Below are positions 47,298 through 54,619 of a stretch of DNA of 59,606 bases, piece by piece. The first letter of the stretch is position 1. Every line of letters starts with the position of its first letter. Position numbers and translations under genes: made by a program. This DNA comes from an uncultured Crocinitomix sp. (GTDB lineage: Bacteria; Bacteroidota; Bacteroidia; Flavobacteriales_D; Crocinitomicaceae): assembly GCA_905478225.1 (NCBI GenBank), contig CAJQHR010000052.1:1-59606 (forward strand), in the 5' to 3' direction. Below the pieces are notes generated by a model. That model had not been told where the DNA came from. It searched no databases and saw nothing but the letters and a program-made list of their open reading frames with translations.

Positions 47298-47702
47298 TTA
47301 ATCCATTTTAGGCTTTTGGCGAAACGTCTTCTTTGCGCTTTGAATCTTTTTACTTTTTTGCTTGCGCAGTTTTGAACCTTTTGAAGGTTTTGTTGCCTTG
47401 CGAATCTTTGGACGAACCAAATTCTCGGTCAATAGATTAAACAACCGCTCGGTTACAAGGGCTTTGTTTCTGAACTGGCTCCTACTCTTTTCGGCGTTAA
47501 TTTGTAAAACGCCCTCTTTGGTTAAACGCTTGGCTAACTTTTTTAATAAAGTCGATTTTTCATGTTCGGTTAATCCTTGCGAATTGGCTAAATCAAAAAA
47601 AGCCATGATTTTTGAAGCGACTTTATTGACATGTTGGCCTCCGGCGCCAGAGCTGCGCGCGGCTTTATAGGTAATTTCGGTACGAATGATCCCTTTTTGC
47701 AT
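47298..47702 (-). CDS. arfB: Alternative ribosome-rescue factor ArfB-like
   Basis: A 134-residue protein with the GGQ peptidyl-tRNA hydrolysis motif at 21-23 (GAGGQHVNKVASK) and no stop-codon recognition domain. The C-terminus is a lysine/arginine-rich tail (KGSKLRKQKSKKIQSAKK) that in ArfB sits in the empty mRNA channel. It releases peptides from ribosomes stalled without a stop codon. Length matches E. coli ArfB (140 residues). Confidence 0.92.
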   Translation of the reverse strand: MQKGIIRTEITYKAARSSGAGGQHVNKVASKIMAFFDLANSQGLTEHEKSTLLKKLAKRLTKEGVLQINAEKSRSQFRNKALVTERLFNLLTENLVRPKIRKATKPSKGSKLRKQKSKKIQSAKKTFRQKPKMD

Positions 47703-48047: not shown

Positions 48048-49346
48048 CTACTCAACTGGCAAAGCTTTAGGTGCCGTTTGCACACGCGAAGCCAAATCGG
48101 TTAATGCGCGCACAAAAGTATCTAATTCCTTCGTTGTGGTAAAAACGTTGGGCGTTATTCTGCAACCACGCACATTAGATTGGTTTATGGCAACGGTCCA
48201 AATTTGATAGTCATCCATTAAGCTTTTCGCCATTTTATTCGGGCTCATGTTGTTAATACTGACATTGGCAATGGCACTAGATCGTTCTGTTTGCCAAGGC
48301 GTATTCAGAGAAACATTAGGAATATTTTTGACTTTATCGGTCCAATAGGCTTTCAAATAACGCAAACGCTCTTCTTTTCTTTTAGATCCAATTACGTTGT
48401 GATAATCAATGGCATTAGCAATCGCTAAGTCAACATGTACAGGCTTTGTGCCCGTATGTCCCAATCGATCAATATTATCAACAGGCATTACATTTTCCGC
48501 GAATAAAGGCCAGAGTTTTTCAACTTTGTCCTTTTTCACGTAGAGAAAACCAGCACCTAATGGAGCGCTCAACCATTTGTGTAAACTTGTGCCGTAATAG
48601 TCACAGTTTAAATCTGGTATTTTAAAATCGAGTTGTGCAAAAGCATGTGCCCCATCAACCATCACCTCTACTCCTCTTTCATGCGCCATATCACAGATTT
48701 TTTTAACCGGCAAAACATGCCCATTAATATTAACGATATGGCTAATTAGAATCAATTTCGTTTTCTCAGTAATTTTTTCAGCATAAAGCGATAGAATATC
48801 TTCGTCTGATTCAGGGTGATTGGGCAACGTAACCCGCTTTGTGACAACGCCGTAACGCTCATGCACCTGCCTGAACATATTTCGCATGGCACCGTAATCT
48901 TGTCGTGCCATGATCGCTTCATCACCTTCGGACCATTTATAGCCGCCAATCACCAAATCAAGCGATTCCGTCGTATTCCTTGTTAAAATCAGTTCATCAG
49001 CCTCACAGCCAGCCATTTTTGCAAGTCGCTGGCGAATTTCTTTTTGATTCGCTGCCATTATGGTACGCATATAACGCGAAGCTTGGTAATTAACGTCCTT
49101 TACATGTTTTAAATAATTCGTCAACGTTTCCTCTGGCATCATGCAGTAATAGCCATTTTCAAGGTTAATGTAGTCCGGATTAATGCGGTATCCTTCACGA
49201 ATAGTGCTCCAAAAATATTCATCTGCAGCTAGCTGACCCGGTGGAATATGTTCATATTGGTGAACGATATTTGAAAGAGTTTTAACTCCAGGCATTGTGG
49301 CCATTGAAAGCAAAGAGAAATTCTTGAGGAAAGTACGTTTGTCCAT
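48048..49346 (-). CDS. Class V aminotransferase (isopenicillin-N epimerase/cysteine desulfurase fold)
   Basis: A 432-residue PLP enzyme. The N-terminus MDKRTFLKNFSLLSM resembles a Tat-type or simple export signal with K-R in place of R-R. The core has LTRNTTESLDLVIGG, VDGAHAFAQLDF (Asp binding the cofactor) and YGTSLHKWLSAPLGAG, where the Lys of HKW forms the Schiff base. It resembles the isopenicillin-N epimerase-like group often exported in Bacteroidetes. The substrate cannot be told; epimerase or desulfurase activity are both possible. Confidence 0.85.
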   Translation of the reverse strand: MDKRTFLKNFSLLSMATMPGVKTLSNIVHQYEHIPPGQLAADEYFWSTIREGYRINPDYINLENGYYCMMPEETLTNYLKHVKDVNYQASRYMRTIMAANQKEIRQRLAKMAGCEADELILTRNTTESLDLVIGGYKWSEGDEAIMARQDYGAMRNMFRQVHERYGVVTKRVTLPNHPESDEDILSLYAEKITEKTKLILISHIVNINGHVLPVKKICDMAHERGVEVMVDGAHAFAQLDFKIPDLNCDYYGTSLHKWLSAPLGAGFLYVKKDKVEKLWPLFAENVMPVDNIDRLGHTGTKPVHVDLAIANAIDYHNVIGSKRKEERLRYLKAYWTDKVKNIPNVSLNTPWQTERSSAIANVSINNMSPNKMAKSLMDDYQIWTVAINQSNVRGCRITPNVFTTTKELDTFVRALTDLASRVQTAPKALPVE

Positions 49347-49499: not shown

Positions 49500-49536
49500 A
49501 GTCCAGCCCCCGCCTTGGGCGGATGGACTGGACTCT
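49500..49536 (-). terminator. GC-rich hairpin after the EF-G-fusion gene
   Basis: AGTCCAG and CTGGACT outer arms with an inner CCGCC/GGCGG stem, read on the minus strand and followed by TTATTATTT. It lies about 24 nt past the stop at 49560. The T-tract is weak, so this could also be a dispersed palindrome. Confidence 0.5.
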
Positions 49537-49559
49537 GCGCATAGCGATTAGTTCATTAT

Positions 49560-50012
49560 TTAACTTGAAACGTGGTTCGGCACGATCTCATAATGCGAAA
49601 GCTTCAAATTAATAGTAGCACGGCCACTGGTGAGTGTTCGTAAATCACTGATATAACCAAACGTTTTGGCTAAAGGAACTTCGACTTGAATAACCTTGCG
49701 GTTTGCTCGCTCTTCAATTCCTACAACAGTTCCACGTGGAAAATGCAGTAGAGTATCGTTTTTCATTCCACCAACGTTCATCATCCACTCGTTCCCTTCG
49801 CTCAGCGCTAGCACTAAACGTCCCCCTGCATCCGTTTTAAATTCTTTGCGGGAAAAAGTCGAAGTCTCAATTAAGACAATTGGCAAATTCGCCTTGGGTC
49901 CTTTTGAGTCATTCACTACAATTGAGTAGTTTAAAGTTCCTTCTTGAGCAAATACTTGGCTGCTTATTAGTAAAAAGCTCAATAGCGTCAGTAATCGTTT
50001 AATTTGTTTCAT
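49560..50012 (-). CDS. Secreted Ig-like protein fused to an EF-G domain V fragment
   Basis: 150 residues in one uninterrupted frame. Residues 1-22 are a signal peptide (MKQIKRLLTLLSFLLISSQV). Residues ~25-90 form an Ig/carboxypeptidase-regulatory-like domain (EFKTDAGGRLVLALSEG). Residues ~92-150 match the second half of elongation factor G domain V: RGTVVGIEERANRKVIQVEV, then PLAKTFGYISDLRTLTSGRA, SHYEIVPN. In EF-G this segment is RRGxIxGMxxR..VI.A.VPL.EMFGY..DLR..T.GRA...HY..VP. A cytosolic translation-factor segment behind a signal peptide is unexpected. It probably arose by illegitimate joining of two genes. Confidence 0.8.
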   Translation of the reverse strand: MKQIKRLLTLLSFLLISSQVFAQEGTLNYSIVVNDSKGPKANLPIVLIETSTFSRKEFKTDAGGRLVLALSEGNEWMMNVGGMKNDTLLHFPRGTVVGIEERANRKVIQVEVPLAKTFGYISDLRTLTSGRATINLKLSHYEIVPNHVSS

Positions 50013-50416
50013 AGCACGGTTTTAATGCGGTTTATTGTTTCTTGAGTATTCATTTAATGTGCGGGGCTTAAATAGGTTACAATTTGATGCAATGTGATAT
50101 GTGTATCGTGTCACTCGTTTAGCTGAAACATGTGAAATTCAGTTTTCAAAAAATTTATTTATTAAAGATAAAAAGGAGATTTTAGATTTCAAATACGGTA
50201 TAAACCCTATTTTTATCTAAGATGTTAGTCCACCCTAGATGCATGGATCTTGATTTAGGCCATTTAATAACACACTGATAACGACCGTTTACAATGATCT
50301 TGAAAATGTTAACTGTTTATTCGAATCTGTGATTCCGTTGTTAGACTTAAGTACTATCATTGATTATTTGAAATCACTAGACTCACCGCCCTTTCAACTC
50401 TTACCTATTATTTAGA
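50013..50416. other. Intergenic region, no supported gene
   Basis: About 400 nt, AT-rich. No ORF, structured RNA or repeat is evident; it should hold the promoter of the EF-G-fusion gene. Confidence 0.45.
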
Positions 50417-51229
50417 TTAATAAAAATAAGGCTCGTCAGAATTTAGTAAAACCACTTTAGTGCCTCCAGGAATGAATTCCTCTAATAACGGAGCTGGTAG
50501 ATCATTGTCTAAATTCAAGACCTCCTCTAATTCTAGAGCAGACTCGATCTTTTCGCCATTTTCATTGCATGATTCTGAATGTTTCGAATGATATCCAGTA
50601 CCATTATTCAAATCATAGGTATAGGTTTCACTATAAACGCAATTTCTAAAGAAAGACAAAGTTGCAGCGGCTAGCTCCCAATTCCCTTCAGAATGCTCGA
50701 ACGTATGAGAATAAGACCATTTATCTGCACTGCCTCCAAAATGAAAGATTTCCAGTTGTCCTTTTCTAATCTCCAACTTCTCGAAAGGATCTCCCATCAC
50801 TCCTCCACTCTCACTTGACAAAATCGGTCCAACAGCCGTGTGCCATAAAGACCATAAGCCTTGATGTTCCGAGTAAATTCTGAGTTCTCTTTCAAATCCC
50901 ATTTCACCTTCACGTCCTGTATTAAAGGCAATTGCCTTTTCATTAATACCGTCACCGTCCAAATCGCCTACGGCTTCACTCAACAAGTCATAATTTTCCG
51001 GAATCTCTACTTGGGGCAACCCACCTAGATTAGATGTATTATTATCACCCTGTCCTTGATCGATTTGTTCAGTATTATCTGCTGAGTCTGCTGAGTCTGC
51101 ATTATCTGCATTCTCAGGCTCTGGATCACTACAGGCAAACATAAATATCATTGAAAAAGTTGCTAGCGCTATTACAGCTCTCTCTCTAATTGGAGCTAAG
51201 GCTTCATATTTTTTGGATAATTTGTACAT
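50417..51229 (-). CDS. Lipoprotein with low-complexity linker and calcium-type DxDxDG motif
   Basis: 270 residues. A lipobox-like MFAC places the lipidated Cys near residue 33 after an unusually long charged leader; a later start is possible. The mature N-terminus is a repetitive acidic linker (ENADNADSADSADNTEQ). The folded part contains DLDGDGINE, a loop that binds calcium in FG-GAP and dockerin-like proteins, and a beta-rich region with two cysteines (RNCVYSE, SESCNENG). No family is identified. An outer-membrane location is likely. Confidence 0.6.
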   Translation of the reverse strand: MYKLSKKYEALAPIRERAVIALATFSMIFMFACSDPEPENADNADSADSADNTEQIDQGQGDNNTSNLGGLPQVEIPENYDLLSEAVGDLDGDGINEKAIAFNTGREGEMGFERELRIYSEHQGLWSLWHTAVGPILSSESGGVMGDPFEKLEIRKGQLEIFHFGGSADKWSYSHTFEHSEGNWELAAATLSFFRNCVYSETYTYDLNNGTGYHSKHSESCNENGEKIESALELEEVLNLDNDLPAPLLEEFIPGGTKVVLLNSDEPYFY

Positions 51230-52947: not shown

Positions 52948-53463
52948 TTAAAACGCCAAATACATTTGATGATTTGGGTTACTATGCGTTTCCGAAATCC
53001 TAAAATCATGGCTTCCAATAATTTTAAAGGCCATTTTTTCGTAAAACCGAATGGCGCGTTTATTTTCAATCCACGTAAACAGCCAAATTCCAGCCTGATT
53101 TTTTTCTTTTGCCTGGTTCATGTTAAAATTGAACAGCTCCTCTCCTAAACCCAATCCATGAAAGGCCTCTAGAATATAAATGCGCGCTAACTTTGCTATA
53201 TTTTTAACTTCAACATTGGCCGCGGGTTGATCAAATACAATTTTTGAGTAGCCCACCATCTCGTTTTTATAAAACAAGAGCCGATAGGCCGCATTTGGCT
53301 GATTGATTTCTGCTTTAAAAATATCACGTGTATAATTCGCATCTAAGTAGAGCTGAATATCAGCAGTGTTAGCATTATGTCCGTGCGATTGTATAAATGT
53401 TTCTTTGGCCACTGAGGTGAGTTCGGCTAAATCTTCGTGCCCGACTTTTTCAATTCTAATCAT
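52948..53463 (-). CDS. GNAT-family N-acetyltransferase
   Basis: About 171 residues starting at ATG 53463 (MIRIEKVG). It shows the GNAT order with the acetyl-CoA loop in LEAFHGLGLGEELFNFNM and the late strand FYEKMAFKIIGSHDFRI. Bacteroidetes homologues are called general acetyltransferases; the substrate is unknown. Its stop codon is 14 nt from the TonB fragment on the opposite strand. Confidence 0.85.
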   Translation of the reverse strand: MIRIEKVGHEDLAELTSVAKETFIQSHGHNANTADIQLYLDANYTRDIFKAEINQPNAAYRLLFYKNEMVGYSKIVFDQPAANVEVKNIAKLARIYILEAFHGLGLGEELFNFNMNQAKEKNQAGIWLFTWIENKRAIRFYEKMAFKIIGSHDFRISETHSNPNHQMYLAF

Positions 53464-53719
53464 TCTGGAATCAAAGTTAGAAATACTAAGCAGCATTGAA
53501 AACGGGTTTAAAAATGACTTGTCCGGTTGTTTGAATTACGAATCTCAAGTGTTCGCGAATGTGCTAATTTCTAAAATGAAAGCTAGTCAAAAGGACGCAG
53601 ATGAATCAGATTCAGCTAGAACTCATTTATTTTTCATTACTTGTGCAACACTTGGATTCTCAATTATCAAGGTTATTAAAGGCAAAGGTTCCGAATCCAG
53701 CTGAAGCAGTCTTAACGCT

Positions 53720-54619
53720 TTAATCCAAACCTAGCTGATTTCGATAAGTGCTATCGGCTACCGTATTTTTTGTCCAATAATCTACCCGTATACTTTTAAT
53801 TAGCGTGGCGCTAGTCGTTAATTCTTGGCGGCTGTCTCCCCAGCCACTAAAATAGCTTTCATTCCACCCTATTATTTTGTGTGGAAAAGCAGTTTCATAG
53901 GTAATGGTCACGTTACGTTCTAAACCTGGAAAGTTTAATTCATATTCTGTCTCCTCGCCATTGGGCTGTCTTGTGAGCTCGCAATCATAGGTCTTCAGAT
54001 CTATATGTGCTAGTCTAACATAAAAAAAAGAGGGAATTACTTTCGCGTTGCCAATGGGCAAATTTTCAGGGTTCAATCTAATCACCGACCAAAAATCATC
54101 CTCTAAATAGGTTTTATTCAGTTTTATTTCAGGACTTGATTCACCTTCAAAATAGGAATCGATTCGAACTTCAAACTGTTTCTTATTTCTTAATTCCATA
54201 TAGGTATGCCCGCACCACTCTTGCATTGATGCCGAAACTTTTATGGCATGTTTTCCTTCATTAAATGGGAAAAATGTGCTTAACATCATTGAATAAGGAT
54301 AAATTCCAGTATTAAACTTCTTGGTGAAGTTCAATTTCAAGACTGGTACATCCGCGTTAGTGGGCGTATCAGCTTTTGTCCATGACTCTTTAGAAAAATC
54401 CTCTGTAACAAAAATCATGGAAGCCTGACCTTCATGCATTTCACCGTAGCGAGCTTGTTCCAGTTTATAGCTCGTTATTTCAGCTTTTCCATCATGCCAT
54501 AACTCCTTGGCTAAAGGGTCGGTTGGCACATTAGTCTCAAAAGATTCAGCACCACAAGAAGTGAGCAGCAAAACAGCAATCATTAAACTCAGCATATTTC
54601 GGTTTTTAGTTCTATTCAT
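53720..54619 (-). CDS. Conserved Bacteroidetes lipoprotein
   Basis: A 299-residue lipoprotein. The signal peptide ends in LTSC with Cys22. The mature region includes WHDGKAEITSYKLEQARYGE, FVTEDFS, NTGIYPYSMMLSTFFPF and RVDYWTKNTVADSTYRNQLG. This pattern is shared with Bacteroidetes lipoproteins sometimes misnamed septum formation inhibitor Maf; no Maf nucleotide-binding features are seen. Role unknown. Confidence 0.7.
   Translation of the reverse strand: MNRTKNRNMLSLMIAVLLLTSCGAESFETNVPTDPLAKELWHDGKAEITSYKLEQARYGEMHEGQASMIFVTEDFSKESWTKADTPTNADVPVLKLNFTKKFNTGIYPYSMMLSTFFPFNEGKHAIKVSASMQEWCGHTYMELRNKKQFEVRIDSYFEGESSPEIKLNKTYLEDDFWSVIRLNPENLPIGNAKVIPSFFYVRLAHIDLKTYDCELTRQPNGEETEYELNFPGLERNVTITYETAFPHKIIGWNESYFSGWGDSRQELTTSATLIKSIRVDYWTKNTVADSTYRNQLGLD

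Follow-up and report, generated by a model that had tools for sequence, protein, structure and literature searches.

A probable deletion scar in an uncultured Crocinitomix joins the start of a secreted VWA-domain protein to the end of an EF-G paralogue

Introduction

How does the later part of a translation elongation factor come to lie behind what looks like a signal peptide? The question is raised by a 150-residue open reading frame (ORF) with an ATG start at 49560-50012, on the minus strand of the window, by which we mean the whole stretch of 59,606 nucleotides analyzed here from an uncultured Crocinitomix sp. An earlier note, made from the sequence alone, offered two readings: an illegitimate fusion that has since taken on a role and been retained, or a by-product without function. 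Among the titles listed in literature searches on gene fusions and deletions, gene remnants and the Bacteroides EF-G2, none is about this locus.

The two halves of the open reading frame

The reading frame is continuous and open over all 150 codons. Its head (residues 1-92; 49737..50012, minus strand) has a signal-peptide-like N-terminus followed by a beta-rich stretch, and its tail (residues 93-150; 49563..49736, minus) corresponds to the later part of EF-G domain V. Comparison with the parent genes described below places the junction at the codons for R-G-T (residues 93-95; 49728..49736, minus). The head has a GC content of 0.401, the tail one of 0.420 and the window one of 0.373, which bears out the remark in the earlier note that the frame is continuous and the composition does not change sharply.

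Residues 92-148 match the Pfam family EFG_C (PF00679) with an E-value of 6.4e-14 and 52.2 bits against a cut-off of 27.9, so the identification of the last 58 or so residues as EF-G domain V stands. The match spans profile positions 28-85 of 89, and the domain is thus incomplete in the tail; unlike a genuine EF-G (FusA), the fusion has none of domains I-IV, and its domain V is without the initial strand and helix. Among PDB sequences, 48 distinct entries match about the same stretch at E up to 0.01 (best 6.8e-10), most of them named EF-G or EF-2 and the others relatives such as mitochondrial ribosome-releasing factor 2 and TetQ. Neither of the outcomes that had been named as speaking against an EF-G origin, the lack of any EF-G match or the occurrence of this tail in some large family unrelated to EF-G, was found.

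Head and tail were each searched against 59 genomes, the window's own genome included. The tail matched 54 of them, and its best matches outside the window, at 81-82% identity, come from the final part of a second EF-G gene that three genomes of the same genus carry (G001, G004 and G006); other EF-G matches reach at most 51%, among the matches listed. Identity to FusA of the same genome is 42%, and the cell's own fusA, which the earlier note had raised as a possible source, is therefore ruled out. Of 20 positions invariant among 14 EF-Gs the tail keeps 18 (counted by eye), the two changes being A46V and M72L in A2 numbering.

The second EF-G is present in three of nine genus genomes (100, 95 and 88% identity to the G004 query). 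In the other genus genomes only ordinary FusA is seen at E 1e-100, with 50-52% identity, and G002, which is 84% complete, has no EF-G match at that threshold. The paralogue passes the models TIGR00484 (852.4 against 659.4) and NF009381 (706.7 against 583) and fails the Bacteroides EF-G2 model NF058620, with 456 bits against a cut-off of 1000. Two of these genes, L055:4966-7038 and L052:11667-13739, are about 52% identical to FusA and by score are not Bacteroides EF-G2.

The head is less easily named. Its N-terminus is hydrophobic and, read from the sequence, resembles the signal peptide that the earlier note had called clear. The Ig-like domain seen there is weakly supported: beta strands are modeled in the region, but the head alone (residues 1-93) matched no Pfam family up to E 10, so that we reject its assignment to a named Pfam domain, and a Foldseek search with the whole low-confidence fusion model found nothing in the PDB at E 0.001 or better. 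The head matched 14 of the 59 genomes at E 0.01 or better, several weakly. The strongest matches outside the window lie again in the same genus (G001 73%, G006 69%, G004 69% identity), where they form the starts of proteins of 762-763 residues. In the 763-residue secreted protein of G004 a von Willebrand factor A (VWA) domain occupies residues 411-557; that part of the parent was not retained, and the fusion ORF has no VWA domain.

Scanning contigs of named genomes with the head gave four loci. Three, from Crocinitomix metagenome-assembled genomes, are probably the same as G006, G001 and G004 and add no evidence of their own; the fourth, from a Chloroflexi metagenome-assembled genome, matches residues 79-149 only, at 37% identity. 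As a separate observation, a 34% match to the VWA-protein head in another congener, G007 (L009, G007:C3:181264-181521), has an internal TAA and an open frame of 176 residues, and this stop suggests that the VWA-protein gene is decaying in that genome too.

An AlphaFold2 model of the fusion, built on 20 aligned rows of which 5 were head-only and 14 tail-only, has a mean pLDDT of 55.9, a figure that such mixed rows may themselves lower. Within the model, ten-residue blocks from 31 to 80 in the head reach pLDDT 71-85 with beta strands, and those from 101 to 150 in the tail stay at 35-43. For comparison, domain V of the G004 paralogue was modeled in full with the same 14 loci and reached a mean pLDDT of 91.9; the first strand (residues 3-13) and helix (15-27) of this control have no counterpart in the fusion tail. 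The earlier note had asked whether the half-domain can fold, and by this comparison it is not predicted to do so.

Gene order in related genomes

The parents of both halves are neighbors in two of the related genomes, where they are intact and have the order and strand of the two parts of the fusion. At the place of the fusion, G004 and G006 carry the gene for the 763-residue secreted VWA-domain protein, a gene for a 340-residue protein on the opposite strand, and the second EF-G paralogue; the window has the single fusion ORF in place of these three. The order in G004 (L052) begins with orthologues of window genes 53720-54619 and 52948-53496, and continues through several genes to the orthologue of 50417-51229. 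There follow a small gene, the VWA gene, the opposite-strand 340-residue gene and the EF-G paralogue, then a 666-residue gene on the opposite strand and the orthologue of 48048-49346. In G006 (L053) the core of this order, beginning with the 50417-51229 orthologue and ending with the 48048-49346 orthologue, recurs with extra small genes; upstream, its contig covers the 270-residue gene only and the stretch ends before the other two orthologues.

The genes flanking the fusion are conserved on both sides in comparison with G004 and G006, while the window differs from them in some genes between the shared landmarks. The upstream flank is a gene for a 270-residue protein (50417..51229, minus); G001, G004 and G006 have its orthologue (71-73%) upstream of the VWA gene, separated from it by small genes. 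Downstream is a class V aminotransferase gene (48048..49346, minus), with an orthologue at 84-85% downstream of the EF-G paralogue in the same three genomes and other genes between. The G006 aminotransferase gene (L053:2563-3861) carries a single TAG stop but is 84% identical over the rest. In G001 the VWA and EF-G parents are both present but on different contigs, with other neighbor genes. Horizontal capture is not needed as an explanation, since both halves match one syntenic region.

The junction

The window ORF corresponds to roughly the first 95 residues of the VWA protein and the last 60 or so of the EF-G paralogue. In both G004 and G006 the two parents have R-G-T in register at the join, at VWA residue 94 and EF-G residue 629, and share 10 of 11 bases there. 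Among all position pairs, matches of this quality have frequencies of 2.2e-5 and 3.2e-5, and among the pairs that are in register, 3.8e-5 and 5.2e-5. The two R-G-T sites are 5,470 bp apart in G004 and 5,486 bp apart in G006, from which we would put the deletion in the ancestor at about 5.5 kb. The VWA parent of G001 has Q-G-T at the join, Q in place of R; because the G001 parents are also not adjacent, parent adjacency and the shared bases rest on two of the three carriers.

Taken with the synteny, the junction supports the part of the earlier note that spoke of an illegitimate fusion: comparison with the relatives gives good support to a joining of the two halves by a deletion.

What was lost and what remains

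The window's own genome is a draft in 75 contigs, 98.52% complete. The rest of the VWA protein has no match in it apart from two matches of 30% to the VWA region, elsewhere in the genome. Nor was the 340-residue protein found there, a blank that is weak alone because the search had no positive control. The EF-G paralogue, used as a query, recovered of itself only the tail (73% over query residues 625-690), along with FusA at 52% and weaker matches to other GTPases; the EFG_C profile has four matches in the genome.

Beyond the TAA of the fusion ORF, the match to the EF-G paralogue runs on to that gene's true end, and the fusion therefore stops four codons short of it. Next comes a stretch resembling the 3' flank of the paralogue (49500..49549, minus; AATCGCTATGCGCAGAG here and AAGCGCTTTGCGCAGAG in G001), which runs into a GC-rich hairpin at about 49500-49534 (63-nt fold, -26.5 kcal/mol, z -3.68). 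On the other side, the upstream region (50013..50220, minus) has blocks, recognized by eye, in common with the region upstream of the VWA gene in G001, G004 and G006. A consensus scan was uninformative for promoters (4 promoter-like sites against 3.0 expected), and its lone terminator-like site falls within the ORF. Elsewhere in the window, 47298-47702 encodes a small protein with an RF-1 domain (PF00472) and a GGQ motif, which we take to resemble the ribosome-rescue hydrolase ArfB.

Selection on head and tail

We fitted a codon model to four genomes, with 90 codons of the head and 52 of the tail. To keep the alignment in register, one additional glycine codon was taken out of the heads of G004 and G006; the codons surrounding the junction and those at the very end of the tail were also left out. 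For the tail, omega is 0.80 on the branch of the window's genome (G000) against 0.03 elsewhere. The two-ratio model improves on the one-ratio model (lnL -413.40 against -418.04; twice the difference is 9.3), and the fit is just as good when the tail branch is neutral (-413.41). Constraint on the tail thus looks relaxed on the window branch. For the head, omega is 0.06 on the G000 branch and 0.08 elsewhere, with no difference between them, and making the head branch neutral costs 6.1 lnL units (-874.32 against -868.19).

These values would suit a fusion that has been kept, in which a single event turned the signal peptide and first beta domain of the VWA protein into a new small secreted protein on which selection acts, the EF-G tail being an extension that is tolerated and drifts. 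The conserved upstream blocks and the model of the head, moderately confident in part, would fit as well. We nevertheless consider this unlikely. The branch on which the omega values of head and tail were estimated includes time before the deletion, and synonymous sites are saturated (head branch t about 7.5). Amino-acid changes unique to the window branch, counted in G000, G001 and G004 with G006 left out, number 12 of 22 in the head and 7 of 12 in the tail, against 50 of 130 in the two flanking genes; columns differing in all three genomes were dropped (9 in the head, 1 in the tail, 17 and 31 in the controls). The shares do not differ significantly from those of the flanking genes, whether for the head (p 0.17), the tail (p 0.22) or both together (p 0.08). 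Finally, among the nine genomes examined of its genus the fusion is found in the window's alone. Should the head be kept after all, the ORF would be a chimeric gene of very recent origin, whose two parents can still be seen in sister species.

An artefact of assembly or binning would be conceivable in a draft of this many contigs, but we judge it very improbable, as both flanks match a single syntenic region of G004, head and tail have diverged from their counterparts in relatives (69-73% and 81-82%) about as far as the neighboring genes have from theirs (71-73% and 84-85%), and the missing pieces do not turn up elsewhere in the assembly. A new periplasmic role for the EF-G tail itself seems hardly credible, despite the open frame and the invariant positions kept, given the missing strand and helix, the truncated end, the low confidence of its model and its raised omega.

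A deletion scar and its meaning

We are left with a reading that we hold to be very probable: the ORF is a deletion scar joining the start of a VWA gene to the end of an EF-G paralogue, and its product is most likely non-functional and decaying. The ancestor, like the two congeners, would have had three genes within about 6 kb: one for a secreted VWA protein, one on the opposite strand for the 340-residue protein, and the second EF-G. Loss of some 5.5 kb between two short stretches of matching sequence would have removed about 670 codons of the VWA gene, the whole of the 340-residue gene and about 628 codons of the EF-G paralogue, and the join would have fallen in frame by chance, at odds of one in three. 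Transcription would presumably start from the upstream region of the VWA gene and end at the 3' end of the EF-G paralogue. If made, the product should be secreted, as a short head with an unfolded EF-G tail, heading for decay; we do not expect it to act as EF-G in the periplasm, and the fusion product is likely to have no role. Between the two readings of the earlier note, the by-product is therefore favored over a kept new role, because the domain is partly missing, is not predicted to fold and has its end shortened by a stop.

There are likenesses elsewhere. Amiri, Davids and Andersson reportedly described Rickettsia orphan genes in which a deletion leaves a short ORF built from pieces of older genes. 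The present ORF likewise appears to have been put together from pieces of older genes after a deletion, although here two genes join in frame, with a signal-peptide-like start. In a study of spontaneous bacterial deletions at short repeats, a cut-off of 8 bp or more is deduced for true deletions (PMC3411829). As in those deletions, the junction here lies at a short match, but this match, 10 of 11 bases with one mismatch, is deduced from the parents in relatives and not from the ancestor itself.

The ORF is best read as an ordinary deletion remnant, of the kind that genome decay commonly leaves. To find part of a translation factor following a signal peptide is startling at first sight and calls for caution, yet the same gene order in two relatives points to a simple deletion. 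With both parents at hand, the locus offers a clear example of how in-frame chimeric ORFs may arise and can mimic domain fusions.
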